This document shows positions 14,116 through 47,749 of a stretch of DNA of 52,950 bases, piece after piece. The DNA lies in IMG/VR virus record IMGVR_UViG_3300048032_000821, positions 1-52,950 of that record; one strand, 5' to 3'. Within the stretch, counting starts at the first letter, position 1; each line of letters opens with the position of its first letter. This stretch comes from a virus. The translations under genes were made by a program, and so were the position numbers. The notes beneath the pieces were generated by a model. The model saw only the letters and a list, made by a program, of their open reading frames with translations, was not told where the DNA came from and did not search any database.

Positions 14116-17100
14116 ATGTCCCTCTTCGACGATATAGATCTGGGGGCTGATGATTACTCAGGCGAAAAGAAAGATAGCCTAAGTCAATTTACCAGCAAAC
14201 CGGTACAGAAAAAGTATCAACCATTCGGAGGCCAAATGCCTCAGGCTCCACAGCCACAATATGAACCCATTGATTACGGATACGAGGTTCAGCCTGCACA
14301 GCGTCCGAGTAATGTATTTGATGAACTCGATGCCTATGACGGAATCAAAAAAGCTCACGGTCAGTTCAAACAGTATGCTACCGAGAACGAAAGATCTGCC
14401 AAGCATTACGAAGGGTTGTATGATGATTTTGTAAAGAACGAGTTCCAACCGTTTTTCAACAGCGTCGGCGGATTCGGAGATTTTGATAATGATGACGAAA
14501 TGCTTTCGTTCATCGATCAGATGAAAGCGGATGAAGTAAAAGCGAGTCAGGAAGAAGACGGCTTTTTTGGCGGATCTTCCGACCGCAAGATTGCAGCCCA
14601 GGAGAATCTAAAAAAGTTTGGAGCATGGGATAGCACCAATGGATTGCGGGATAAATTTCTCAGGCTGAAGGCTGAGAAGGACCGCAGAAGACAAACCGCA
14701 GATGCTGCCAGAAATCAGGAATTTCAATTATTCGAGCAGCTGACCAACATTCCAATCCCTGCACGGGATGCTATGGATGCACAGCTCAAGGCTCGGAGCG
14801 CATCACCTAAGAGCAAGAAAGCGACAGATGATTTACTGAATCAATATTCTTTTGAGGCTCCGATTGTTGATCACATGACGGGTGAAGTTATCAATTTAGA
14901 AAGAACAGATCCCAGAAAAGCAGTCCCTTCCGCTACCGACCATTTAACCGGCAAGACTTCCAAATCCTTTGATGCGCAAAAACAAAGATTATCGGCTGCT
15001 ATGCGCGGAGATATTAATGGAGTCCTCGCCCGTCGCGATTTGGTAAAGAAGGAAAGAAATCTTCGCGATAAAGGAATCTTCTTCTCTCAGAATGGATTGA
15101 TTGATGGCCGACCCATTGGTCTTTCCCGTAACGATGTCGATCTTCTCGATATTGCTGAGATGAAGGCTGCGGGAATGACCAGCTATCGCGGAAAACCATT
15201 GGAACTCGCAATGGAAGAGCTTGGCGGAGAAGAGAGATTAAAAGCAGCCAAGATCATGGAATCCGTCTATGGTGCCAAGAGCAACTATGAGGATGCACAG
15301 TTAGCATTTCTAAAAGTAGCCGGCAGCTCTAAGGCTGACAAAGCCCGCGAAAAGATGGAAGCCGCCCGGGATGATATGCAAAAAGTAATATCTCTGGCTG
15401 CTGAAAACGGTTTGGATAATGAATTGTTCGAGCAGGCTGAGAGTACCAGCTGGCTTGGTGGATTAGGAAATGCAATTCAGCGGGGTGTTCTCATGAGTGA
15501 GATGAGTGATTATACTCCCGACTTTCTCACGAATACATTGGATGCGGATGAGATGCAGAAATTTATCGAGATCGCATCTGAGATAGAAAAGCTTCCCACG
15601 AGCTCGACCATGAAACGGGTAAGAGAGACCAAGTCCGACGGGTTTCTCGATGCTGTTGGAAATCTATTATTTGATAATCCCGCTGCGATTCCGGAAATGT
15701 TCGTGGAGTCAATATCGGCTTTTCTCCCGGCAACAATCAAATGGCTCATCCCATCAGCCGGAGCAGGAGCCGCGGTCGGTGCAATTGGTGGCCCGGGCGC
15801 TGCATTGGCTGGAGCAGGGGTTGGTGCCAAAGTGTCCTGGGGTGTTGCATCTTTTGTTCTCGAAGCATCCGGCATGGCCTTGGAAGGAATGCAGGAATTG
15901 GGGGTTGATTGGAAGAATCCAAAAGTATTTGCCGCCGCATGGACCAATGAAAGCATTCGCAATAAGATCCAGAAGAAGATGGTGCAGAAGGGTGTTCCTA
16001 TTGCAGCAGCCGATATGCTTGCTGGTATGATGGGTCAGCGGGTCATGGGCGTGATCAACCACACGGGTAACGCGATGTTCAAAGGAGGAAAGCTTCTTGA
16101 TAAAACAGCATTCAATAAGGCACAGGGAGCAGTTCCCAGATTCACAACTTTTCAAAAGACCAGAAATGCAGCAGCCGAATTAGGCTTTGATTCCACCATG
16201 GGTATGTCCGGAGAATATCTGGGACAGTGGGCTAGTAAAGAACCAGGCGAAGCATGGGACTGGGATTCAGTCGTTGCTGAAGGATTTGTTGGGGTTGGCC
16301 CGGGTATACTATCATCCGCTCTCGAAATGCGCGGGCGTAACGCGAACTACTTTAGTAATGCCCCCATTGAGATCAGCGGCGAGCAGGCTACAGAAACCGG
16401 ATCCATGGGTACAATTACCCGTGCAGGGTATGCCGCACCATATCAGACATTCAATGATGCGGATTCAATGGTTGAGTATTTATCCGGTATCCCGGGAGTT
16501 AGCCCCGAGTCACTAGAATTCACCAATGATTTTCTACAACGGATGTTCACGGCAAAGCCTGAAGCCATGGCAAGTCTCAAAGTGGCGATCAGCCCAAGGA
16601 CACCAGATTCCAATATGGCAAACCGCGGACAGTTTGAGAGCCGCGATGGACACGATGTTATCTATATTAATGAGAAAGAATTTGCGGCTGATCCTATGGG
16701 TGCTTTCATGCACGAGTCGGGTCACTTTGCCCGTGTATTTATTCTTTCTGATAAAGAGCTTAATACTATATGGGAAGGTCTAGGACCTGATGCTCAGCTC
16801 GAAGCATACGCCCAGTATTTCACTAAAAAGCCCGATCAGTCTTTCGATTCTTTGCCTGAAAATGAGCAGAAGAAAATAAAACAAGCATTTGATCGGATGA
16901 AACGAACCAGTCCTGATGTCCTTGCCGAGGAGTGGTTTTCTTATCAGTGGGGTCGTGTTTTGACACAGGATGGTAAACCCGACCCATCAGTCGCAAAACA
17001 GCTTAAATCATTTAAAGACAAAGTGCTGCATGAGGCCATGTCTCCTTATGTAGGAACCGAGAACTTGTCAGGTGGCGCGAAAGGAGTAATCCTTGATCAA

Positions 17101-20100
17101 AAAATCAAAGACTTTCTCGGCATGGAAAATGCCATGCCTGAGCCAGCAACTCCTGATGCCGAGGGCTCTCAAACAAACCCGACCCCGCAAACTACGGAGC
17201 AGGCCCAGCGCAAGCTAAACGCAATGCCCGGAACCCCGAAGGAGAAATCCATGATCGCCCGCGCATTGAATGCCATGGCCGGGGAGAAGCTTCTTACGGA
17301 GAGCCAAAGCTTTTACAGACCTAGCATGGGTCAACCTTCAGCAGCCGATCTTGAAGACAGAGAGATTGCTGAGGATTATAAAAAAGAAACTCAGGATCCC
17401 GAAGCAATCGCCGAGGCAGCACCCGCTTTTACGGATGAGAAGCAGACAGTAGAAAAAACTTTAGTAAAACGAGTCCCTGGGGAGAAGAGCTTATACGAAA
17501 GAACTGCCGACAAACCTTCCGGAATCCCGAAAGATCCCGAAAATGCTAAAGGTCTTAGTACTAAGAATAAATCAGAGAGGGCATCCGCTGGCGGGAGAGA
17601 GCTACCGAAAAGTCTGGGCACACCATCGAAAAGAGAGGCAGCGGCGGCTAAACTTCGTATTGAGAAGGCGGAAGCAAAGGAGGCCAAAAAGAAAGCTTTG
17701 GCTGCAAAGAAAGAAGCTTTGAAAAAGGCGCGGCAAACAAAGCCAGAGCCTCAAAAAGTGTCCGTTAAAGATTACACTAAAGAAGTTTCGAAGAAAGTTG
17801 AACAAGAGCGAAACAAATCTGGTGAGGTTGTAAAAGCAACAGAAGAAGGCACCCGCGAAGAACGATTTAAAAAAGGTAAAAAGATTGATGCTCTGAACGC
17901 TTTTGAGGCGGAGAAGAAGGGAATTGATTCCATCATTCCTAAAAGTGAAGAAGAACGAGCAAACTTACAAAAAGCATTTAACAGAATCCAAAAGCTTAAA
18001 GGATTAATGGTTAGCAAAAAAGCTTTGCAGGAAGAGATCGGCAAAGCAAAGAAGGAGATGGGAGATGACGCATCTATATCGGGTATCATTTCCAAAGTTC
18101 TCGGTCTTGAACAGTTACTTGAAGCATCTCCCGTATCCGTTGTTGGAGAGTTAAGAAAAGTCGTAAATCCAACTGCGCGAGGAAAACTACCAAGCAGTCA
18201 GGATATCGAAGACACTATGATCGAAATCCGTGACCGTGTTGATTCGGTTGCCCAGCAGTTGGAGAATCTTATCGCAGAGCGGAACAGAGAAATCCGTAGT
18301 CTTGATAGACCTGAGGGTCAGAAAGAAGTGGCCGAGCTCATAAAATTAAGAACTCTGGCCGAGCAGTACCTCGCAATCATAGCTCCCGAAAAGCTTAACA
18401 TTGATTGGAGAGACACACCCCACTTCTTTTATAAAAGACGCAAAAAAGGTTCGAAAGTATTGGAGCCGGTAACCCTTGGGTTTCTAGCCGATAATAAAGA
18501 CTACGGCTCATACGAAATCACAGATAATAAAGGTACGGTAAACAAGAAGACCATGGGGCAAAAACCTCAGCATGTATTATGGGATTTTGTTACTGGCGGA
18601 TTTGATCCTGAGAAACAAACCAAGACATCTGAAGCTAATTTCAAGAAAAAGACAGGCGGGCTAAATCTCAAGGAATACACCGCACGGCTTGAGGCTGTAC
18701 GAGCATCCGCAATGTTCAAGAAGCAAAAAGATATTGGTAACGAGCCAATAACTACAGATTCCAGAGTCATGGAATATCCATCCGGATTTACCATGGATTC
18801 AGGAGCAAATTTCGGTGCAATCGTTGCGGAACGGATCAGGCAGATGCTCATGAAAAAGGGAGCTAAACCAGTTCCTATGTTCAGCGAAAATCCTACCGTT
18901 GAAGAGATCCAGGCATTACTCATGGCCAATGGCCGAAGTCTTGAACTCCTTGGGGATCCGAGAGATTCAACAAAAGATTTTGATAAATTGATGTACATCA
19001 TCGAAACCCAGAACCAGCTTCGCAAGGTTAAGGGAAATCAGCCAAGAGACATACCAGGTTTTGACGGCAAACCAATCTTCGGAATAAAAAGCACGGGCGA
19101 ACCGATCATATTTGATCATACCCGAGCATTGGCCGAGCAGTTTGAATATGCAGAAGAAGATGGAAATCCATTTCCGCAAGTAGAACCAAATGCTCCGTTT
19201 TCTAAAACATTGGCAAAAATAATTAGTGCCAAAGTCCGCCTTAAATACACCCAGGATTATTACAGGCAGGCCGGAGAGAATGCTCAGCTTACTAATCCTA
19301 TCGACGGCAAACCGCTTGAAATATCCGAAGATTCTAAGGTCGGAAGAAAAGAGATTCGGCGTGTTTTTGGTGAGTCTGACCCAGCAAATATTGAGCAGTA
19401 TATTGACCAGGAAAAAGAAAATCTTACGCAAAATACTATTGATATTCTTACAGCTCGGGCCAAACAACTACGGGATCTCAAAACTCTAGATGGGCAGTTC
19501 GAACTCGAACTCAAAGATGCATACAACCAATTCTTTCAATCCAAGGACAAAAAAGGTGTAGCCAAGGTCATTGACGATCTGGCTAACAATTTCAATTTCA
19601 TACCATACCCTCAGCCCGACAGCTTCATGCCAAACGCTGAGGACATGGGAATCGGGCTTGCTAAGTTCGAGCAAAAAGGAAATCGCTCAGCCCCAAAACT
19701 ACCAAAAGGATTCTTTGTAAAACCACGGAGCGATTATAATTACAGAAAACCTTTCCACAGCACCTCCGACAAAATACCTGCACGAAAAGTTGAGGTTCGC
19801 GTTAAAAAGAAAAAGACTTCGTTAGTCGCTAATTATGGATCTTTTGAAGATGTAATAAAAAAAGCAAAGGAAAGGGGCGGAGAGATAGAAAAAGAAGCAC
19901 AGGCTCTTGAGGACAGAATGGCAGATGTTGAGTTCGATTCTAGACAAGCTCCAAACGGGAATCTTTTGCGAAGTGCACAAAATAGCTTATACAAAGCAGC
20001 AGTAAGTTTAATTCAAGACCCGGATGATTATCAAGAAACTGTAACCGAAGTCGTTGAAGATAGAGGCCACGGAGAATTTACCGCGGGCAAGATCTACGAA

Positions 20101-23100
20101 ACCTTCGATGCAATGAAGGCGTATGCCAAAGGTCGTGAATATCAGGGCTTAGGTTGGAAGAAAAATTTCAAAAAAGAACGGACGACCATTGATAATACTG
20201 AAAAGAATATGGCTCGTCCTACTGATATGAAGAAGGAACAGGCCAATCTTCTTTCATCAGTAGATATTAGTGCAGAAGATTTTGCGAACTGGTTCCTTAG
20301 CGGAAGTCGCAAAAAAGTACCCGGCAGGAGTTTAAAGATGGAGGAGCTAGCCAATGTCCCATCATCTGTGTATTCCGAGAAAACAATCAATCAATTGGGT
20401 GGCGGACTTGGGGAAGGGCTTCTTGTCTATTCATTCCCGGATTTCATCGAGACCATGCATAAAAAGTTTGGGATCAAAGGTTTTGAGTCTCAGGTCGAAG
20501 GTCTCAGGACTGAACTTAAAGACCTATTGTCAAAATCCGAAGTCCTCAGGCCGGAGGATATGCAAAAAATTTCTGCAAAGATGGAAGAGGTTTCCCGCCC
20601 AATCGTTCAGGCAGTCCTGGATGCGGAAGGTGTTGATGTATACGGAACTTTTGACCATAGCTCGGAAAACATCCTACAGCGCGACACCCAAATGGGAGAA
20701 GCAACCGACGCCGATGAAAGAAGCGCGGAGATACGAGACGATAGCGGAGAGACTACTGAATCTGTAGAAACCGATCTCGAAGCAGTTGAAAAAGCGCAGA
20801 GGCAAAAAGATTTAGAAGATGCTCTAAACGCAAAGCCGAAAGCCTTGAGAAACAGGGAAAAGGTTACCGACTCGATGCTTGAGGAGTTGTATTTTTCCGA
20901 AACCACACCGACACTTCGAGACCTCGCAAAGGTAGAGCTTTTGAGAAGAGGCGTGAATATTCCCTATGTCATTGATGAAAATACAAAAGAGCTTTTTGAA
21001 GAAGTATTCACCCCCAAAGACAGCAATCCAAGATCCCTAAATTCCGATGCCGGCAAGCCGGAAACCGGAAAACCTATAACATTGAATGGTTTCCACGGCT
21101 CCAACCAAGCGAAGACGGTCTACGAAGAAGGTTTTGATCCCGACAAGCTAGGTTCTTTTACAGGAGCGGTTTCGGCGAGGGAGGGTTTCTTTTTTGCTCG
21201 CAGGCCAAAAACTGCGCGCCGATATTCCGGAACTTTCGGCCCTGTCGGGAGACTGTTCGCGAAGCTCGTTGAGATTTTTGAAAGACAAATTCCCGCGGTA
21301 TCCCCAATAAAAGACACATACTATTCTTACAGGCAGGCATTTAACAACCCCGAACAAAAAGAGGGTTTATCTTTTATTGAGGAAAAGCTTTTTAGTTCAG
21401 GTTTGGTAAATTCTCAAGGTAAGTGGAACAATAAATCAGAACAGAAAACTGTAGATAATTTTTTAAAGTCGTTAGACAGCATTAAAACACCGAAAGGTTT
21501 GGCCGGTAACGCTGTACAAGTTCTAAAACAGCAGTTTAAGGAAACGCAGAAACCTGTTGAGGATAGACGGGGGCTGATACAAGCAAGTTTAGAGTTCAAA
21601 AACCCTTATGTAGTTGATTTTAAAGGTAAAAATAGAACTTATGCAGATTATGTTAAAGCCATAAAAAAAGCTAAAAAAGACGGACACGACGGGGCAGTAT
21701 TATTAAACACTTTCGATCCTATGGCGGATGATATTTATGTCGTGTTTAGCGCGAGCCAAATCTCCCTGGATAAACTTAAAGACCGCACATTAAATTCCGA
21801 TGCCGGCAGGGTTCTAACCAGCGATGTTAACCCAAATCTTACGAAAGCGACCCTGCTATCCAAGATCGCGGGCGATCGGGAGCTTAAGAACGAATTTAAG
21901 GAATGGGCGGCCACCAGAAAAGAAAGCTACGATAAGGGTAGTTTCCGGATGAATATGATCGACCGGATGAGCCCGGTTAAGCTTTTGTCACAGTCATCTC
22001 TCGAAGTATTCGAAAAGCTCGGGCTTAAGAAAGGTAGTCTTCTCCATAACTGGTTGGATGTGCACGGCCGTTCGCATCAGTATTTTGGAAAAGGCGGCAA
22101 TGGTTTAGAGCAAAGTCGTTTAGATTATTACGATCCTCTGACTGAGATTATGCGGAAGCATAATGTTACACAGAAGGAAGCCGGCGAGTACCTGATTGCA
22201 CGAGCTGCACCCAGTAAAAATCTTCAAATCGAAGCAAAAGCCGAGGAAGTATTATCGGATATGCGGAAGGAAGACGAGCAGGGGAAAGGTAAGGAGTATA
22301 AAAAGCTCTACGATTTTTATTACGATAAAGACGGTAATTTTATCCGTAATTCCGGTGTGGAAACAAAGAAAGCTTTGGAAGTAATGGCTGATATGGAATC
22401 AAAGCCAGAATTTGTTGAATTTCTAAAAGAGTTTCTCCCCGTATACTACGGCATGAACAAAGATGGTTTAGATCAGCTCCGTAACGGTGAGCTAATCAGG
22501 GCGGCAGTTGAAGATCCGCAGGTTAAGGGTAAAATGATTGATATAGATGAAAAGGCTGCGATGGTAACCGCTGCTTCCCGATTTGATTTTAATACCGGTA
22601 AGGCCGATAAGTACGGCAATAAATACGAATCAAAAGTAAAGCTTGCGGATAATTATGCATACTCCCCGCTAAAAGGGTTTGAGGGGGAGACCGAGCAGTT
22701 CTTTGATCAGGAAGAAGCTTGGGAAGAGTTTGGATCCAAGAGCACAGGGGCCGGCAAAGGTTTTAACCAACCTAAAACTTCATTTATTCTTCTCCCAGCT
22801 TTTGGTCGTAAAAATGATGGCGTAAAGTCATACGGACCAGATCCGGTGACCGTTGTGGGTAATGCTATAAATCAGCATACCGCTGCCATGATTCGGGCTA
22901 AGAAGAATGAAGTATCCCGATCGTTCGGGAACATGTATGCACTTTTATACTCGGTCTTAAATCCGAACAAAAAAATCAAAAAAGATAGCAGCGAGTTTTT
23001 CGATCTTTCTACACTTAATCGGGTTCCGGAGTTTAAAGAAACTTATGACATATTAAAAAGCATACACGAACCCGGTAATGAGAAGCTTCTGGAGGAACTT

Positions 23101-25197
23101 ACTACCGAGTTCAATAAAGTGTTCGACAAACCATTCGAACCTTCGGAAACAAAAATGGCCTACGAGTTAAAAGAAGCGGAAAGCGATATCGCAGGAGCGA
23201 AGATAGGTCTAGTTCGTAGAACATTAAGTAGTGAGTTTAAAAACGATCAGAATGTTTTTGTCTTTAGAAAAGCGGGGCAACCTCAGTTCATCCGGTTTAA
23301 TGAAAGAACAGACGAAGGGCTCCGCATGGCGGATGCCATGAACAATTTACGATACGAATCCTTACCCCCGATTCTTGGAGGTTTCAATGTTGGTACTCGT
23401 TTAATGGCTAAGATGTTCACCTCGGCCAACCTCGCGTTCATACTCCCCAACTTTTTCCGTGATGTATTAACCGCAAGAATTCATCTTAGTGAGGACAATA
23501 AAAAGGTACTCATAAAAGACGCACTGAATCGCAAGAATCTCGCGGGTTTTATGAAATCTATTTATCAAACCGAAGCTGACATAAAGAATGGTATCAACCC
23601 AAATCGTAAAGAAGAGATCTCAAAGATATTAGCTTTGAGAGATCCCAAAAAGATTTTGGAGTCTGGAAACCGTCAGGCGATGTATCAATACTACAAGGAG
23701 AACGGTGGTAAGGTTGATATGTTTAGACATCCAACCCTTGTTGAAAAAATAAAGGACATTCAAAAATCTCTTAACGGAAAAGACGGGTGGACAAAAGCAT
23801 CCTGGAAAAAGTTCTGGGATTTTGTAGATACCGCCAATACGGCTGTCGAGAACTCCATTCGTGCATCTACTTTCTGGGCAGCAATCAAAGATGGTAGAGG
23901 CCCGGATGAAGCGGCGGTAATCGCCAGAAATGTCACTGTTGATTTCAACCAAAAGGGAAATCTTACCCAGACATTTGGATCTTTGTATGTGTTCTTTGGA
24001 GCATCAATGAATTCGATCGATCGGTTCTTTACTACCTTCTCAAGAAGATCTCCCAAAGAAAGAGCTAAGCTTATCGCGGGTATCGCTGGAGCAGCCTTTA
24101 TTATAAATATACTCAACCGTCTGATGGATGATGACGAAGATGAGGAAATGCCGGATTACGACACCATCAGCTCTTATAAAAGAGACACCAACGCAATCCT
24201 ACCACTCCCTGCGGGTCTTCCTGAATTCTTCAATGATGAGAAGGATACAGGATTCTTCAGCTTACCTCTTCCTTTAGGTTACAACTTATTTTGGACAATG
24301 GGTCAGGTCATGGGTGATATGTTTGCGAAGAATGTATTCGGCAGAGGCGGTGCCGGATTAGTCGAAGCTACGACACGGTTTACCGACAGTGCATTGAGTG
24401 CTTTCAACCCTGTAGGCGGATCGAGTGGATTAGCTGTTGCGATTACTCCGACTCCTCTCGTCCCATGGATTGAGCTTTACGCGAATAAGAACTTCATGGG
24501 TTCTCCTATTAGATATGCCGATCGTCCATTTGAGGTACCAAAACCTGGACATATGCAGGATCCGAAAGGAACTCCTGAACACTGGAATAAATTATCAAAG
24601 GCTATCAATAATTTCATGGGGGGTAGTGATGATGTGAAAGGATCCTTTGCGGGAATGCTAGGCAATAACCCGCTGTACTACCGTTCCGATGAGGATATAA
24701 CTTTTGATATCTCCGGTAATCAAATGAGACATTTGGTTATGGGATATCTTGGCGGTCCGGGCCAAAAAGCAGACGCTCTTTTTGGTTCCTTGTTCAGTGC
24801 AGGAAGCGGAAAGCCTTCCATCGAAAATGTTAACGATGTTCCTATAGTGAACAGATTTCTACGAGCCACGACCTATGGCTCTGCGACCAGAGGCACATTC
24901 TATGAGGTTCGGGACGCAGTAAAAAATGCAGAGAAAGCGGTGAAGTCAGCAAAACAAATTAATGCGAAGACATACACCGCCGTGCTCAACGATAACCGCG
25001 AACTGCTCAAACTATCATCATCAATCAGCCAGCTCGATAAGCAGAAGAACAAGATGCGTAGGCTCAAGAAACAGATCGAAGGATCCAAGACTTTGACCGA
25101 GGAGCAGAAAACCCAACGGGTGGACGATCTTCAGAAGAAAGAGTTAAATCTAATGGTTAAGGTCATCAAGCAGGCGCAATCGCTCGGAATCTCATAA
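14116..25197 (+). CDS. Giant polyvalent internal virion protein (3693 aa)
   Basis: One uninterrupted frame of 3693 codons, a fifth of the window. Visible parts: charged helical N-terminus; Gly/Ala-rich hydrophobic zipper about 536-595; zincin motif HESGH at 866-870 with a later EEWFSYQWG; Lys-rich coiled coil about 1170-1330; ADP-ribosyltransferase-like domain about 2320-2560 (NGFHGS, GFFFARRPKTARRYS, ending YVVFSASQISL); and a C-terminal region about 3090-3400 with NFFRDV and a hydrophobic helix, like LPD38 of phage polyvalent proteins. Such proteins are carried in virions and injected with DNA. I see no N4-type virion RNA polymerase motifs. The stop directly abuts the portal ATG. Confidence 0.85.
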   Translation: MSLFDDIDLGADDYSGEKKDSLSQFTSKPVQKKYQPFGGQMPQAPQPQYEPIDYGYEVQPAQRPSNVFDELDAYDGIKKAHGQFKQYATENERSAKHYEGLYDDFVKNEFQPFFNSVGGFGDFDNDDEMLSFIDQMKADEVKASQEEDGFFGGSSDRKIAAQENLKKFGAWDSTNGLRDKFLRLKAEKDRRRQTADAARNQEFQLFEQLTNIPIPARDAMDAQLKARSASPKSKKATDDLLNQYSFEAPIVDHMTGEVINLERTDPRKAVPSATDHLTGKTSKSFDAQKQRLSAAMRGDINGVLARRDLVKKERNLRDKGIFFSQNGLIDGRPIGLSRNDVDLLDIAEMKAAGMTSYRGKPLELAMEELGGEERLKAAKIMESVYGAKSNYEDAQLAFLKVAGSSKADKAREKMEAARDDMQKVISLAAENGLDNELFEQAESTSWLGGLGNAIQRGVLMSEMSDYTPDFLTNTLDADEMQKFIEIASEIEKLPTSSTMKRVRETKSDGFLDAVGNLLFDNPAAIPEMFVESISAFLPATIKWLIPSAGAGAAVGAIGGPGAALAGAGVGAKVSWGVASFVLEASGMALEGMQELGVDWKNPKVFAAAWTNESIRNKIQKKMVQKGVPIAAADMLAGMMGQRVMGVINHTGNAMFKGGKLLDKTAFNKAQGAVPRFTTFQKTRNAAAELGFDSTMGMSGEYLGQWASKEPGEAWDWDSVVAEGFVGVGPGILSSALEMRGRNANYFSNAPIEISGEQATETGSMGTITRAGYAAPYQTFNDADSMVEYLSGIPGVSPESLEFTNDFLQRMFTAKPEAMASLKVAISPRTPDSNMANRGQFESRDGHDVIYINEKEFAADPMGAFMHESGHFARVFILSDKELNTIWEGLGPDAQLEAYAQYFTKKPDQSFDSLPENEQKKIKQAFDRMKRTSPDVLAEEWFSYQWGRVLTQDGKPDPSVAKQLKSFKDKVLHEAMSPYVGTENLSGGAKGVILDQKIKDFLGMENAMPEPATPDAEGSQTNPTPQTTEQAQRKLNAMPGTPKEKSMIARALNAMAGEKLLTESQSFYRPSMGQPSAADLEDREIAEDYKKETQDPEAIAEAAPAFTDEKQTVEKTLVKRVPGEKSLYERTADKPSGIPKDPENAKGLSTKNKSERASAGGRELPKSLGTPSKREAAAAKLRIEKAEAKEAKKKALAAKKEALKKARQTKPEPQKVSVKDYTKEVSKKVEQERNKSGEVVKATEEGTREERFKKGKKIDALNAFEAEKKGIDSIIPKSEEERANLQKAFNRIQKLKGLMVSKKALQEEIGKAKKEMGDDASISGIISKVLGLEQLLEASPVSVVGELRKVVNPTARGKLPSSQDIEDTMIEIRDRVDSVAQQLENLIAERNREIRSLDRPEGQKEVAELIKLRTLAEQYLAIIAPEKLNIDWRDTPHFFYKRRKKGSKVLEPVTLGFLADNKDYGSYEITDNKGTVNKKTMGQKPQHVLWDFVTGGFDPEKQTKTSEANFKKKTGGLNLKEYTARLEAVRASAMFKKQKDIGNEPITTDSRVMEYPSGFTMDSGANFGAIVAERIRQMLMKKGAKPVPMFSENPTVEEIQALLMANGRSLELLGDPRDSTKDFDKLMYIIETQNQLRKVKGNQPRDIPGFDGKPIFGIKSTGEPIIFDHTRALAEQFEYAEEDGNPFPQVEPNAPFSKTLAKIISAKVRLKYTQDYYRQAGENAQLTNPIDGKPLEISEDSKVGRKEIRRVFGESDPANIEQYIDQEKENLTQNTIDILTARAKQLRDLKTLDGQFELELKDAYNQFFQSKDKKGVAKVIDDLANNFNFIPYPQPDSFMPNAEDMGIGLAKFEQKGNRSAPKLPKGFFVKPRSDYNYRKPFHSTSDKIPARKVEVRVKKKKTSLVANYGSFEDVIKKAKERGGEIEKEAQALEDRMADVEFDSRQAPNGNLLRSAQNSLYKAAVSLIQDPDDYQETVTEVVEDRGHGEFTAGKIYETFDAMKAYAKGREYQGLGWKKNFKKERTTIDNTEKNMARPTDMKKEQANLLSSVDISAEDFANWFLSGSRKKVPGRSLKMEELANVPSSVYSEKTINQLGGGLGEGLLVYSFPDFIETMHKKFGIKGFESQVEGLRTELKDLLSKSEVLRPEDMQKISAKMEEVSRPIVQAVLDAEGVDVYGTFDHSSENILQRDTQMGEATDADERSAEIRDDSGETTESVETDLEAVEKAQRQKDLEDALNAKPKALRNREKVTDSMLEELYFSETTPTLRDLAKVELLRRGVNIPYVIDENTKELFEEVFTPKDSNPRSLNSDAGKPETGKPITLNGFHGSNQAKTVYEEGFDPDKLGSFTGAVSAREGFFFARRPKTARRYSGTFGPVGRLFAKLVEIFERQIPAVSPIKDTYYSYRQAFNNPEQKEGLSFIEEKLFSSGLVNSQGKWNNKSEQKTVDNFLKSLDSIKTPKGLAGNAVQVLKQQFKETQKPVEDRRGLIQASLEFKNPYVVDFKGKNRTYADYVKAIKKAKKDGHDGAVLLNTFDPMADDIYVVFSASQISLDKLKDRTLNSDAGRVLTSDVNPNLTKATLLSKIAGDRELKNEFKEWAATRKESYDKGSFRMNMIDRMSPVKLLSQSSLEVFEKLGLKKGSLLHNWLDVHGRSHQYFGKGGNGLEQSRLDYYDPLTEIMRKHNVTQKEAGEYLIARAAPSKNLQIEAKAEEVLSDMRKEDEQGKGKEYKKLYDFYYDKDGNFIRNSGVETKKALEVMADMESKPEFVEFLKEFLPVYYGMNKDGLDQLRNGELIRAAVEDPQVKGKMIDIDEKAAMVTAASRFDFNTGKADKYGNKYESKVKLADNYAYSPLKGFEGETEQFFDQEEAWEEFGSKSTGAGKGFNQPKTSFILLPAFGRKNDGVKSYGPDPVTVVGNAINQHTAAMIRAKKNEVSRSFGNMYALLYSVLNPNKKIKKDSSEFFDLSTLNRVPEFKETYDILKSIHEPGNEKLLEELTTEFNKVFDKPFEPSETKMAYELKEAESDIAGAKIGLVRRTLSSEFKNDQNVFVFRKAGQPQFIRFNERTDEGLRMADAMNNLRYESLPPILGGFNVGTRLMAKMFTSANLAFILPNFFRDVLTARIHLSEDNKKVLIKDALNRKNLAGFMKSIYQTEADIKNGINPNRKEEISKILALRDPKKILESGNRQAMYQYYKENGGKVDMFRHPTLVEKIKDIQKSLNGKDGWTKASWKKFWDFVDTANTAVENSIRASTFWAAIKDGRGPDEAAVIARNVTVDFNQKGNLTQTFGSLYVFFGASMNSIDRFFTTFSRRSPKERAKLIAGIAGAAFIINILNRLMDDDEDEEMPDYDTISSYKRDTNAILPLPAGLPEFFNDEKDTGFFSLPLPLGYNLFWTMGQVMGDMFAKNVFGRGGAGLVEATTRFTDSALSAFNPVGGSSGLAVAITPTPLVPWIELYANKNFMGSPIRYADRPFEVPKPGHMQDPKGTPEHWNKLSKAINNFMGGSDDVKGSFAGMLGNNPLYYRSDEDITFDISGNQMRHLVMGYLGGPGQKADALFGSLFSAGSGKPSIENVNDVPIVNRFLRATTYGSATRGTFYEVRDAVKNAEKAVKSAKQINAKTYTAVLNDNRELLKLSSSISQLDKQKNKMRRLKKQIEGSKTLTEEQKTQRVDDLQKKELNLMVKVIKQAQSLGIS
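21038..21808 (+). repeat. 18-bp direct repeat flanking the ART-like domain
   Basis: TAAATTCCGATGCCGGCA occurs at 21038-21055 and again at 21791-21808, exactly 753 bases (251 codons) apart and in the same frame, each encoding LNSDAG. The two copies bracket the ADP-ribosyltransferase-like domain of the giant protein, as expected for an inserted or exchangeable domain. Confidence 0.85.
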
Positions 25198-45848: not shown

Positions 45849-46979
45849 CTAAGCAGCCCAGCAGGCGATTACTTTTTTATCTTCGATCAGATCGCTGTAG
45901 CTTTCGCTAGTAGTCTTTGAATCGGCATGCCTGCAATATTTTTGCGAGGTATACAGACTCTCGGTCGTAGAAACATAGGACCCAAACAGTTTTCGCAGTT
46001 CATGCAATGGGCTAGGTCTGTCCCAACCGATATCCCGCAATAATGCCAAAGCATCGCTGTATACTGGTCGTCCATTATCCGCACGATTCTTAATTAAATA
46101 ATCGTCGCCCGACGCTTTATTAAGAATTCTTTTGGCTAATGCTTTATTTCCCATGCTGTGTCCTTCGTGTCCACCTTTTGGTCGAAACTTTTTTTCCGCT
46201 TCGACATTCACCCGCGCCTTGTCCCCTTCGAGATTAAACCATGATCTTCTGGAATGATATACTTCATTTCGTCTCAGTCCGAAAATCAGGGATAATCCCA
46301 TAAGCGTATGGACATCCCCGTTGGTCGTATGCCAAAGGTCGAAGGTCTTTTGGATCAAATCCATTGGCGGTAGTTTATACTGCTTGCCCAGCTTTTTAAA
46401 GAAATCAGCTTCCTGAAGTGATTCATTAAAATCTACACAAAAACCATCAAATATCTTGTGGTTAAATATCGCTTTCGTGGCTCTCAGCTTCGCATTGATT
46501 GTTCTTTTTCTCGACTGAATCTCCCCTTCATCGGTCAGCCCGTGGAGAGCTAGTGTTTTATATCCATTGATAAAACTCTCATTCAATTCTCCGCAGTCAA
46601 AATTATCGACATCCTTTTTATTGGTAACGACACGGATCACCCGTTTCAGGTTATCCAAATAATCTTTAACCGTTTTTGGGGCTAGCCCGAGAGCTGCCTG
46701 ATTTTCACGCAATCGTTTTTCAACATCTGAGACTTTTGGACTCGGATCTTTCTCTGCCTGAAACCGTTTTCGGTTAAACATCTCGATCACCTCTTTTATT
46801 GGGTGCAATGTTTTGGCTGCACGAATCTTATCAGCAAGATCCAATGCCTGGCGTTTATCATATCCGAGAGGGAAATAATATTGCTTTCCATCTACCATCG
46901 GACGGTAAAAGAAAACACTATTCGCATTCTTACGATATATGCGTGTGCCTACTCGGGATTTAGCGCTTAATTTGCGCAT
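45849..46979 (-). CDS. int: Tyrosine recombinase (integrase)
   Basis: 376 residues from the ATG at 46979, which directly follows an ACCACACACC leader; an ATG at 47024 would add 15 residues and place that motif inside the gene. Counting from the longer start, the catalytic set is complete: Arg251 (GLRRNEV), His341 and Arg344 (HELRKLFGS), His366 (CRH) and nucleophile Tyr376 (TTSESYSDL). A SAM-like core-binding domain precedes it. It integrates phage DNA at attB by strand exchange. The gene lies next to the attP and points away from it, ending against the convergent late block. Confidence 0.92.
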   Translation of the reverse strand: MRKLSAKSRVGTRIYRKNANSVFFYRPMVDGKQYYFPLGYDKRQALDLADKIRAAKTLHPIKEVIEMFNRKRFQAEKDPSPKVSDVEKRLRENQAALGLAPKTVKDYLDNLKRVIRVVTNKKDVDNFDCGELNESFINGYKTLALHGLTDEGEIQSRKRTINAKLRATKAIFNHKIFDGFCVDFNESLQEADFFKKLGKQYKLPPMDLIQKTFDLWHTTNGDVHTLMGLSLIFGLRRNEVYHSRRSWFNLEGDKARVNVEAEKKFRPKGGHEGHSMGNKALAKRILNKASGDDYLIKNRADNGRPVYSDALALLRDIGWDRPSPLHELRKLFGSYVSTTESLYTSQKYCRHADSKTTSESYSDLIEDKKVIACWAA

Positions 46980-46983
46980 AGGT

Positions 46984-46993: not shown

Positions 46994-47073
46994 TCATTCT
47001 CTTGATGTAGTGTGGGTTTTTCATAAAGTCCAGTGTTTATGCGGGACCTACACTATATCTAGTACCCTAAATC

Positions 47074-47116
47074 AAGATTTTGAATCCGGCGCGTCTACCA
47101 ATTCCGCCATCCGGGC
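47074..47116 (-). other. attP core: 5' half of tRNA-Leu(CAA)
   Basis: Read on the - strand from 47116 the sequence is a tRNA 5' half: acceptor strand GCCCGGA, TG, a D-arm with GGTAGACGC, then an anticodon arm with loop TTCAAAA (anticodon CAA, leucine). Identity with a tRNA stops just after the loop, where TTG replaces the expected stem bases, and no 3' half follows. It lies 95 bases upstream of the integrase start. This is the expected attP core for integration into a host tRNA-Leu gene; the host 3' half would complete the tRNA. Confidence 0.85.
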
Positions 47117-47126
47117 AAAGTGTTGA

Positions 47127-47155
47127 TTTACAGTAAGTTGACAAGTGTAGTGCAA
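47127..47155 (-). promoter_or_regulatory. Candidate - strand promoter reading into attP and int
   Basis: On the - strand TTGCAC (47155-47150) is separated by 17 bases from TGTAAA (47132-47127), whose predicted start lies a few bases before the tRNA 5' end at 47116. It would transcribe the attP core and int in the phage, and the rebuilt host tRNA after integration. It overlaps the + strand promoter. Confidence 0.45.
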
Positions 47156-47166
47156 GTCTATACAAT
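47138..47166 (+). promoter_or_regulatory. Near-consensus sigma-70-type promoter
   Basis: TTGACA (47138-47143), a 17-base spacer and TACAAT (47161-47166), one mismatch from consensus overall. It would drive the rightward pair at 47212 and 47462. Direct CAAGT repeats lie in the spacer, and a TATGCGCATA palindrome (47192-47201) lies in the leader, which could be an operator. Confidence 0.75.
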
Positions 47167-47211
47167 GTATATTATAGGATATGGCGCCTAATATGCGCAT
47201 AGGCAAGTAAA

Positions 47212-47493
47212 ATGAAAGATTGGTTAGATAAGCAAAAAGAAGTGGAAAACGACATGCTTGAGTCCGTTAGTATTCAAGCGAAGCAGATCTCGGAAGAATT
47301 GATTCCTCAGATCAGATTGTGTGCATTAGAAAATGAAATGTGCGCTGATATAATGATCAAGGTGCATTTTGAATTCAATGAGAAAAATACTGAAATTTGG
47401 AGTGAAGGCGCAGTAGACTTTCCCCCAAAGCAATCAGTATCGGAATGTTTCTCGATCGGCTATGGGGAAGATAAAGAAGAATCCGATTCTTGA
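47212..47493 (+). CDS. Hypothetical acidic protein (93 aa), lysogeny region
   Basis: 93 residues, acidic, with an N-terminal helix (DWLDKQKEVENDMLESVSIQ) and a beta-like C-terminal half. First gene behind the near-consensus promoter at 47138 and divergent from int. It overlaps the helix-turn-helix gene by 32 bases. There is no DNA-binding motif of its own. Position suggests a regulator, anti-repressor or excision accessory; none of these is shown by the sequence. Confidence 0.65.
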   Translation: MKDWLDKQKEVENDMLESVSIQAKQISEELIPQIRLCALENEMCADIMIKVHFEFNEKNTEIWSEGAVDFPPKQSVSECFSIGYGEDKEESDS

Positions 47494-47749
47494 AAAACTA
47501 GGTCTGGAGGTAGATGAGGTACGAGCTGCGTTCTCCGTACCCGCCCCAAAAAAACCTAAAAAGAAAAAGAATTACCTATACCGGGCGGAACAGAGGAAGA
47601 TGTCCAACCGTATGCGTAAATGTAAAAATTTGATATTTGCGCGTTACGAGGCCGGTATTCATCCGAAGACAATTGCCAAGGCTATTGGTGTATCCGAGGA
47701 ATCCGTAAGAGTCAGGCTTCGGGCCTCAGGCTTTTTTACACAGTCTTAA
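47462..47749 (+). CDS. Helix-turn-helix regulator candidate (95 aa)
   Basis: 95 residues. A lysine-rich middle (KKPKKKKNYLY) precedes a clear resolvase-type helix-turn-helix, ARYEAGIHPKTIAKAIGVSE followed by ESVRVRLRASGF. It is expressed from the strong promoter next to attP and is divergent from int, as expected for a lysogeny or excision regulator. It is short for a repressor and has no cleavage or oligomerisation domain. Its end overlaps the convergent nuclease gene by 14 bases. Confidence 0.7.
   Translation: MGKIKKNPILEKLGLEVDEVRAAFSVPAPKKPKKKKNYLYRAEQRKMSNRMRKCKNLIFARYEAGIHPKTIAKAIGVSEESVRVRLRASGFFTQS

Follow-up and report, generated by a model that had tools for sequence, protein, structure and literature searches.

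Predicted integration of a temperate marine phage family into the 5′ half of an Opitutales tRNA-Leu(CAA) gene, with a likely exchange of the integrase promoter

Introduction

Of the 3,919 islands recorded in Islander, 159 carry a 5′ fragment of the tRNA gene and 3,760 a 3′ fragment (PMC4383910), in agreement with the initial annotation of the DNA described here, in which the 5′-half design was called the less common one. Archaeal pTN3-like integrases use the 5′ half of the tRNA, a choice seldom met in bacteria (PMC8371274). An integration-dependent switch of the int promoter was demonstrated in 2026 for ICEKp1, and reporters of ICEclc and ICEEc1 behaved similarly (PMC13023037). In the case of the KplE1 integrase IntS, the int promoter overlaps both arm and core sites and autoregulation has been reported (PMC2951348). 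Given the Islander, pTN3-like and ICEKp1 precedents, neither the 5′-half design nor the promoter switch is new in itself.

We analysed a stretch of 52,950 nucleotides from an IMG/VR virus record (IMGVR_UViG_3300048032_000821), hereafter the window, which combines the two features around an integrase gene (int, Table 1). We propose, with a probability of roughly 0.8, that this region serves a family of temperate marine phages as attP, that it recombines through the anticodon loop into the tRNA-Leu(CAA) gene of Opitutales, and that the tRNA is thereby rebuilt while the host promoter comes to read into int.

Table 1. Positions of the attP-region features in the window and of the repeats that bound the integrated copy.
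Feature	Coordinates	Strand	Remarks
Integrase gene int, tyrosine recombinase, 391 aa	45849..47024	-	phrog_1, lambda Int fold, homologs 47-99%
Putative P′-arm site, CCTATGCGCAAATTAAGCGCTAAATCC, inside int codons 15-23	46956..46982	-	direct repeat with P arm
Leader between core and int start	47025..47076	-	no promoter, terminator or stable fold found
Inner inverted repeat, right copy AGTGTAG	47048..47054	-	covaries with left copy
attP core, 40-nt tRNA-Leu(CAA) 5′ half (41 nt, 47076-47116, in the phage of the window)	47077..47116	-	four host tRNAs and relatives
Candidate int-sense promoter TTGCAC-N17-TGTAAA (int; tRNA after integration)	47127..47155	-	7/12, chance level
Divergent promoter TTGACA-N17-TACAAT, predicted for the 93-aa gene	47138..47166	+	11/12 consensus bases
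Inner inverted repeat, left copy CTACACT	47144..47150	-	covaries with right copy
Putative P-arm site, two tandem 11-bp units, CCTATGCGCATATTAGGCGCCATATCC	47177..47203	-	direct repeat with P′ arm
93-aa gene next to attP and pointing away from it, of no known family	47212..47493	+	position kept in the relatives read and in the G266 prophage
Direct repeats on contig C27 of G266	2259-2300 and 16524-16565		

Results

The attP Core and the Host tRNA

A tRNA-Leu(CAA) 5′ half of 41 nt (GCCCGGATGGCGGAATTGGTAGACGCGCCGGATTCAAAATC) lies on the - strand at 47116-47076, with the anticodon loop at 47084-47078 and the anticodon at 47082-47080, and ARAGORN found no whole tRNA in the window. Among the 84,980 bacterial and archaeal species scanned, the exact 41-nt string was matched in four contigs only, all from marine Opitutales/Verrucomicrobia genomes, where it makes up positions 1-41 of the 87-nt tRNA-Leu(CAA) gene, and no species of that collection beyond this group has it. 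Phage and host agree up to the first or second base beyond the 3′ edge of the anticodon loop and differ from there on (host CCGGTTCCC, phage CTTGATTTA), which is consistent with a strand exchange within the loop (47078-47084). The initial annotation had placed attP in a tRNA-Leu 5′ half, had suggested a search for host tRNA-Leu(CAA) genes with the same first bases, and had named the lack of any matching host tRNA as evidence to the contrary; four genomes match, and a related prophage sits in that tRNA. The extent proposed for the half, 47116-47074, was 2-3 nt too long, as the part common to the family is 47116-47077. A reading of this DNA as a truncated tRNA devoid of a T arm, to which a weak match over the full Rfam model pointed (18.3 bits, below the cut-off of 29), was rejected, since the seeming acceptor-stem match falls in sequence that is not conserved between lineages.

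Within the phage family, the base at tRNA position 28 (47088 in the window) varies, giving either CCGGA or CTGGA in the anticodon stem. Hosts with CTGGA carry TCCAG on the opposite strand of the stem, and hosts with CCGGA carry TCCGG. As the phage would provide base 28 and the host would keep base 42, only matched pairs of phage and host rebuild a perfect stem, and the base carried by attP may therefore predict the permissive hosts. The phage of the window carries CCGGA and should thus fit hosts such as L004-L007. One member of the family (L084), near-identical to L010 and L012 around attP, has the other version of base 28.

A Family of Uncultivated Relatives

Protein and DNA scans of IMG/VR yielded relatives of the window phage, which together hold about 26 distinct attP sequences in 12 lineages (set at 85% over 60 nt upstream), the integrated copy described below being one of the 12. 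Their integrases are 47-99% identical to that of the window, a few cut fragments being lower. The sequence GCCCGGATGGCGGAATTGGTAGACGCGC(C/T)GGATTCAAAAT directly precedes int in all of the approximately 26 relatives, so that the same 40 nt (47116-47077) are kept before the gene throughout, base 28 apart, and none of these relatives was seen with a tRNA 3′ half. So that the result would not depend on the tRNA as search sequence, we also used a pattern made of the upstream flank only. It gave 26 matches, 25 of which run into the same tRNA 5′ half (two being cut short by contig ends), and the remaining one is an unrelated chance match. The window phage belongs to a family of uncultivated marine phages, predicted to be temperate. 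For its terminase and polymerase, the phage collection contains distant relatives only (~22-29% identity), and its structural gene region holds a single ORF of 3,693 aa (window 14116-25197).

An Integrated Copy and an Empty Site

One Opitutales genome (G266) contains an element of 14,265 bp that is bounded on either side by a 42-bp direct repeat. At attL, host DNA and the tRNA 5′ half are followed by an int gene that is 84% identical to that of the window; at attR, a homolog of the 93-aa gene and the attP flank precede a 5′ half from the phage, which is joined to the 3′ half of the host to give an intact tRNA-Leu(CAA). The acetyltransferase gene located after this tRNA is the same gene that follows the tRNA at empty sites. 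Such an empty site is found in a related genome (G254), where the left neighbour gene, the tRNA and the acetyltransferase gene stand in a row with no insert; the left neighbour is of the FGE-sulfatase family, lies on the same strand as its counterpart in G266 and is 49% identical to it. The CAA tRNA is the only one of its kind among the Leu tRNAs found in G266, the other two being TAG and AAG. According to the initial annotation, a crossover in the core would place int behind the host tRNA promoter and join the host 3′ half to the DNA upstream in the phage, and the G266 junctions have exactly this topology. The search that it advised, for prophages with attL and attR at the tRNA, led to this copy, and integration of related prophages elsewhere, which it had listed as counter-evidence, was not encountered, the G266 element being in the same tRNA-Leu(CAA).

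The G266 element (L031 2261-16565) encodes int, a 931-aa Kelch/LamG protein, MORN-repeat proteins, an HNH protein and homologs of the early region, and no terminase, portal or capsid gene was recognised among its proteins. With int and early-region homologs and devoid of structural genes, it is hence a remnant or decayed prophage, or a satellite-like relative, and not a full phage. No other integrated copy came up in an integrase search of several hundred genomes from this order. A second copy in G012 was rejected because its two tRNA matches are overlapping contig ends, and further Opitutales matches to the integrase (25-27% identity) were too distant to be informative. In several Opitutales genomes, represented by L051 (G107), L052 (G038) and L072/L073 (G012), the assembly has a gap or the contig breaks precisely at the tRNA-Leu(CAA) gene. 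Such breaks would be expected if part of the population carried an insert; ordinary repeats could explain them too.

The Integrase and Its Putative Arm-Type Sites

The initial annotation had identified the gene downstream of the tRNA half as int, and this ORF (47024-45849, -), which begins 52 nt from the half, indeed matches phrog_1 (PHROG 1, E = 8e-20). A search of the PDB with the integrase profile gave no match, and no integrase relatives were present in the annotated phage collection. By Foldseek, the best PDB matches to the predicted fold are lambda integrase complexes, full-length lambda Int included; the structure model is of moderate confidence (pLDDT 72.7, pTM 0.43) and the C-terminal end of its catalytic domain is poorly modelled. 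By its PHROG match and this fold, the product is a lambda-type tyrosine integrase with a predicted arm-binding N-terminus. In one lineage (L083, 8384-8520, and L085), the first ATG before int runs into a stop, and translation must therefore start at a conserved ATG further on (MKSHT..); int may begin there in other lineages too.

The core is flanked by a direct repeat of up to 27 bp, made of two 11-bp units, each copy lying about 110 bp from the anticodon loop. This outer repeat differs between lineages, yet its two copies agree within each lineage (none of 20,000 permutations equalled the own pairs). The inner inverted repeat similarly shows position-specific covariation across lineages (0 of 20,000 permutations). 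Both repeats are most simply read as arm-type sites of the integrase. The putative P′-arm site lies inside int, and codons 15-23 of its N-terminal part would therefore double as a predicted DNA-binding site. Both promoter candidates share bases with the left inner repeat, and the integrase may therefore repress its own gene as well as the divergent promoter.

Promoters around attP

The initial annotation had assigned TTGCAC-N17-TGTAAA, upstream of the tRNA half, as a possible promoter of int. The sequence is indeed present at 47155-47127, but it matches 7 of the 12 consensus bases, and the best score on the int strand in the right place is at chance level (p ~0.26 against shuffled DNA), as it is in most lineages. 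Its -35 is not conserved and reads ATGCGC in a 94%-identical relative (L002). Good int-strand scores are obtained in L091, L093, L099 and L102 (p 0.003-0.05). The + strand promoter, which points away from int, scores far above shuffled DNA, and the relatives have an opposite-strand promoter at the same place (p < 0.01 in most). When applied to 29 upstream regions of real host tRNA-Leu genes, the promoter test mostly fails, which implies that it is insensitive here. Upstream of the rebuilt tRNA in G266, no convincing promoter was detected by this shuffled-DNA test, which most genuine host tRNA promoters fail too.

At the -35 place, 33-39 nt ahead of the tRNA, TTGCAA or TTGCCA is found in many hosts. 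In the phage family, a TTG starts 37-42 nt before the tRNA half in 8 of the 12 lineages, compared to 0-5 of 12 in other 5-nt windows, and the -35-like TTG of the candidate promoter has the spacing to the tRNA of the -35 TTGCAA in host tRNA-Leu genes. As the immediate upstream neighbour of int is divergent, the int RNA is likely to start in the attP region, with more support for a start upstream of the core than for one on its downstream side. The int RNA of the free phage would then run across attP, and a swap of the int promoter on integration is likely: in the lysogen, the host tRNA promoter would drive int and the phage flank would drive the rebuilt tRNA. The divergent 93-aa gene is a possible excisionase or regulator.

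Discussion

The arrangement at this locus can be read in other ways, two of which concern the origin of the int transcript. If a promoter lay within the 52 nt of the leader or partly in the tRNA half, integration would not change the transcription of int; we think this unlikely. Fair hexamer pairs do occur in the leader of some lineages (TTGGTA-N19-TAGAAT in L009, p = 0.045; TAGACG-N17-TAGATT in G266, p = 0.06), and many of them conserve CCGCATAAACACTGGAC immediately ahead of the start codon, but this conserved stretch fits a translation start. In most lineages the leader shows no convincing promoter. No promoter candidate in the leader is common to the lineages, the ground on which a promoter inside the leader was set aside, and none is above chance in the window phage (p ~0.67). 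The int leader of the window also contains no terminator-like site. Transcription could also arrive from the leftward replication operon (52663 to 47736), which is on the same strand as int, by reading antisense through the divergent genes, with no promoter at attP. It would have to cross a strongly promoted gene pair in the opposite orientation (47212-47749, +), and the rebuilt tRNA of the lysogen would depend on it too; we consider this route very unlikely.

Another view would deny the tRNA half its role as the integration core and see in it a leftover or an RNA element with its own job, such as a tRNA fragment or a leader structure. Such an element would presumably be transcribed within the int leader, and no tool result speaks for it apart from a sub-threshold Rfam tRNA match. 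However, host identity stops exactly at the anticodon loop, the leader of the window has no stable fold, being no better than shuffled sequence (z = 0.36), and the integrated copy in G266 has the matching junctions, so that this reading is largely refuted and has hardly any chance of being correct.

We therefore favour integration at the anticodon loop, for which the host match, the family-wide attP, the G266 junctions, the G254 empty site and the pairing of the putative arm-type repeats, all read from sequence, provide the evidence, with a likely exchange of promoters. A lambda-type integrase would recombine attP with the tRNA-Leu(CAA) gene of marine Opitutales within the anticodon-loop segment that both contain. 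With the 5′ half in attP and int immediately behind it, the tRNA at one end would be intact after integration, its 5′ half being of phage and its 3′ half of host origin, and would be transcribed from phage DNA, and at the other end the host promoter and the host 5′ half would read straight into int.

The phage region before the rebuilt tRNA also holds a putative arm site of the integrase and a strong opposing phage promoter. Both promoters might thus be swapped in a way that brings the only tRNA-Leu(CAA) of the host under a phage control region, where integrase binding or early phage transcription could regulate the tRNA and the decoding of UUG; this extension is tentative, and the odds are somewhat against it. 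If true, it would link the prophage state to the decoding of UUG codons via the host tRNA-Leu(CAA). The main reading would in itself assign phages that are absent from the annotated phage collection searched to a host (marine Opitutales) and to an exact integration site, and would offer a natural case in which, throughout a phage family and contrary to the usual rule, the regenerated tRNA does not keep its own promoter.

Among known systems, the tDNA islands with a 5′ fragment (PMC4383910; Williams 2002 cited there) likewise carry the 5′ part of the tRNA and regenerate the tRNA at their far end, and both the displaced 5′ fragment and the anticodon-centred crossover class are found there as here. 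In Islander, however, these islands are scattered, whereas here a single phage family shows the design uniformly, and int comes straight after the displaced fragment. The pTN3-like integrases (PMC8371274) also target the 5′ half of a tRNA(Leu), with the rebuilt tRNA expressed from the side of the element, but the attP of pTN3 is inside int, which is split by integration, whereas here attP precedes int and the gene stays whole; the likeness drawn here is one of design.

For ICEKp1, ICEEc1 and ICEclc, the host tRNA promoter drives int in the integrated state, and a promoter at the other end does so across attP in the excised state, an arrangement like the one proposed here. Of the traits of this type, a host tRNA promoter upstream of int is seen at attL of G266, and the absence of a terminator applies to the leader of the window. 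In those elements, the tRNA is rebuilt at the int side, so that a whole tRNA lies upstream of int, and stem-loops attenuate the transcript (PMC13023037). Here, in contrast to the ICEKp1 type, only the 5′ half precedes int, the tRNA would lose its own promoter and no stable stem-loop is predicted in the leader. KplE1 resembles this locus in that the candidate int promoter overlaps a predicted arm-type site, by which analogy self-repression by the integrase is possible, and differs in having the tRNA 3′ end at attL. The T7-like cyanophages P-SSP7 and S-TIP37 (PMC8776855) are also marine and have int and an attP that matches a tRNA-Leu gene, but with attP downstream of int and in another host phylum and phage group. 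As far as our searches reach, what is new compared to all of these systems is a whole phage family of the 5′-half design, the Opitutales host and site, and the predicted reciprocal swap of promoters.
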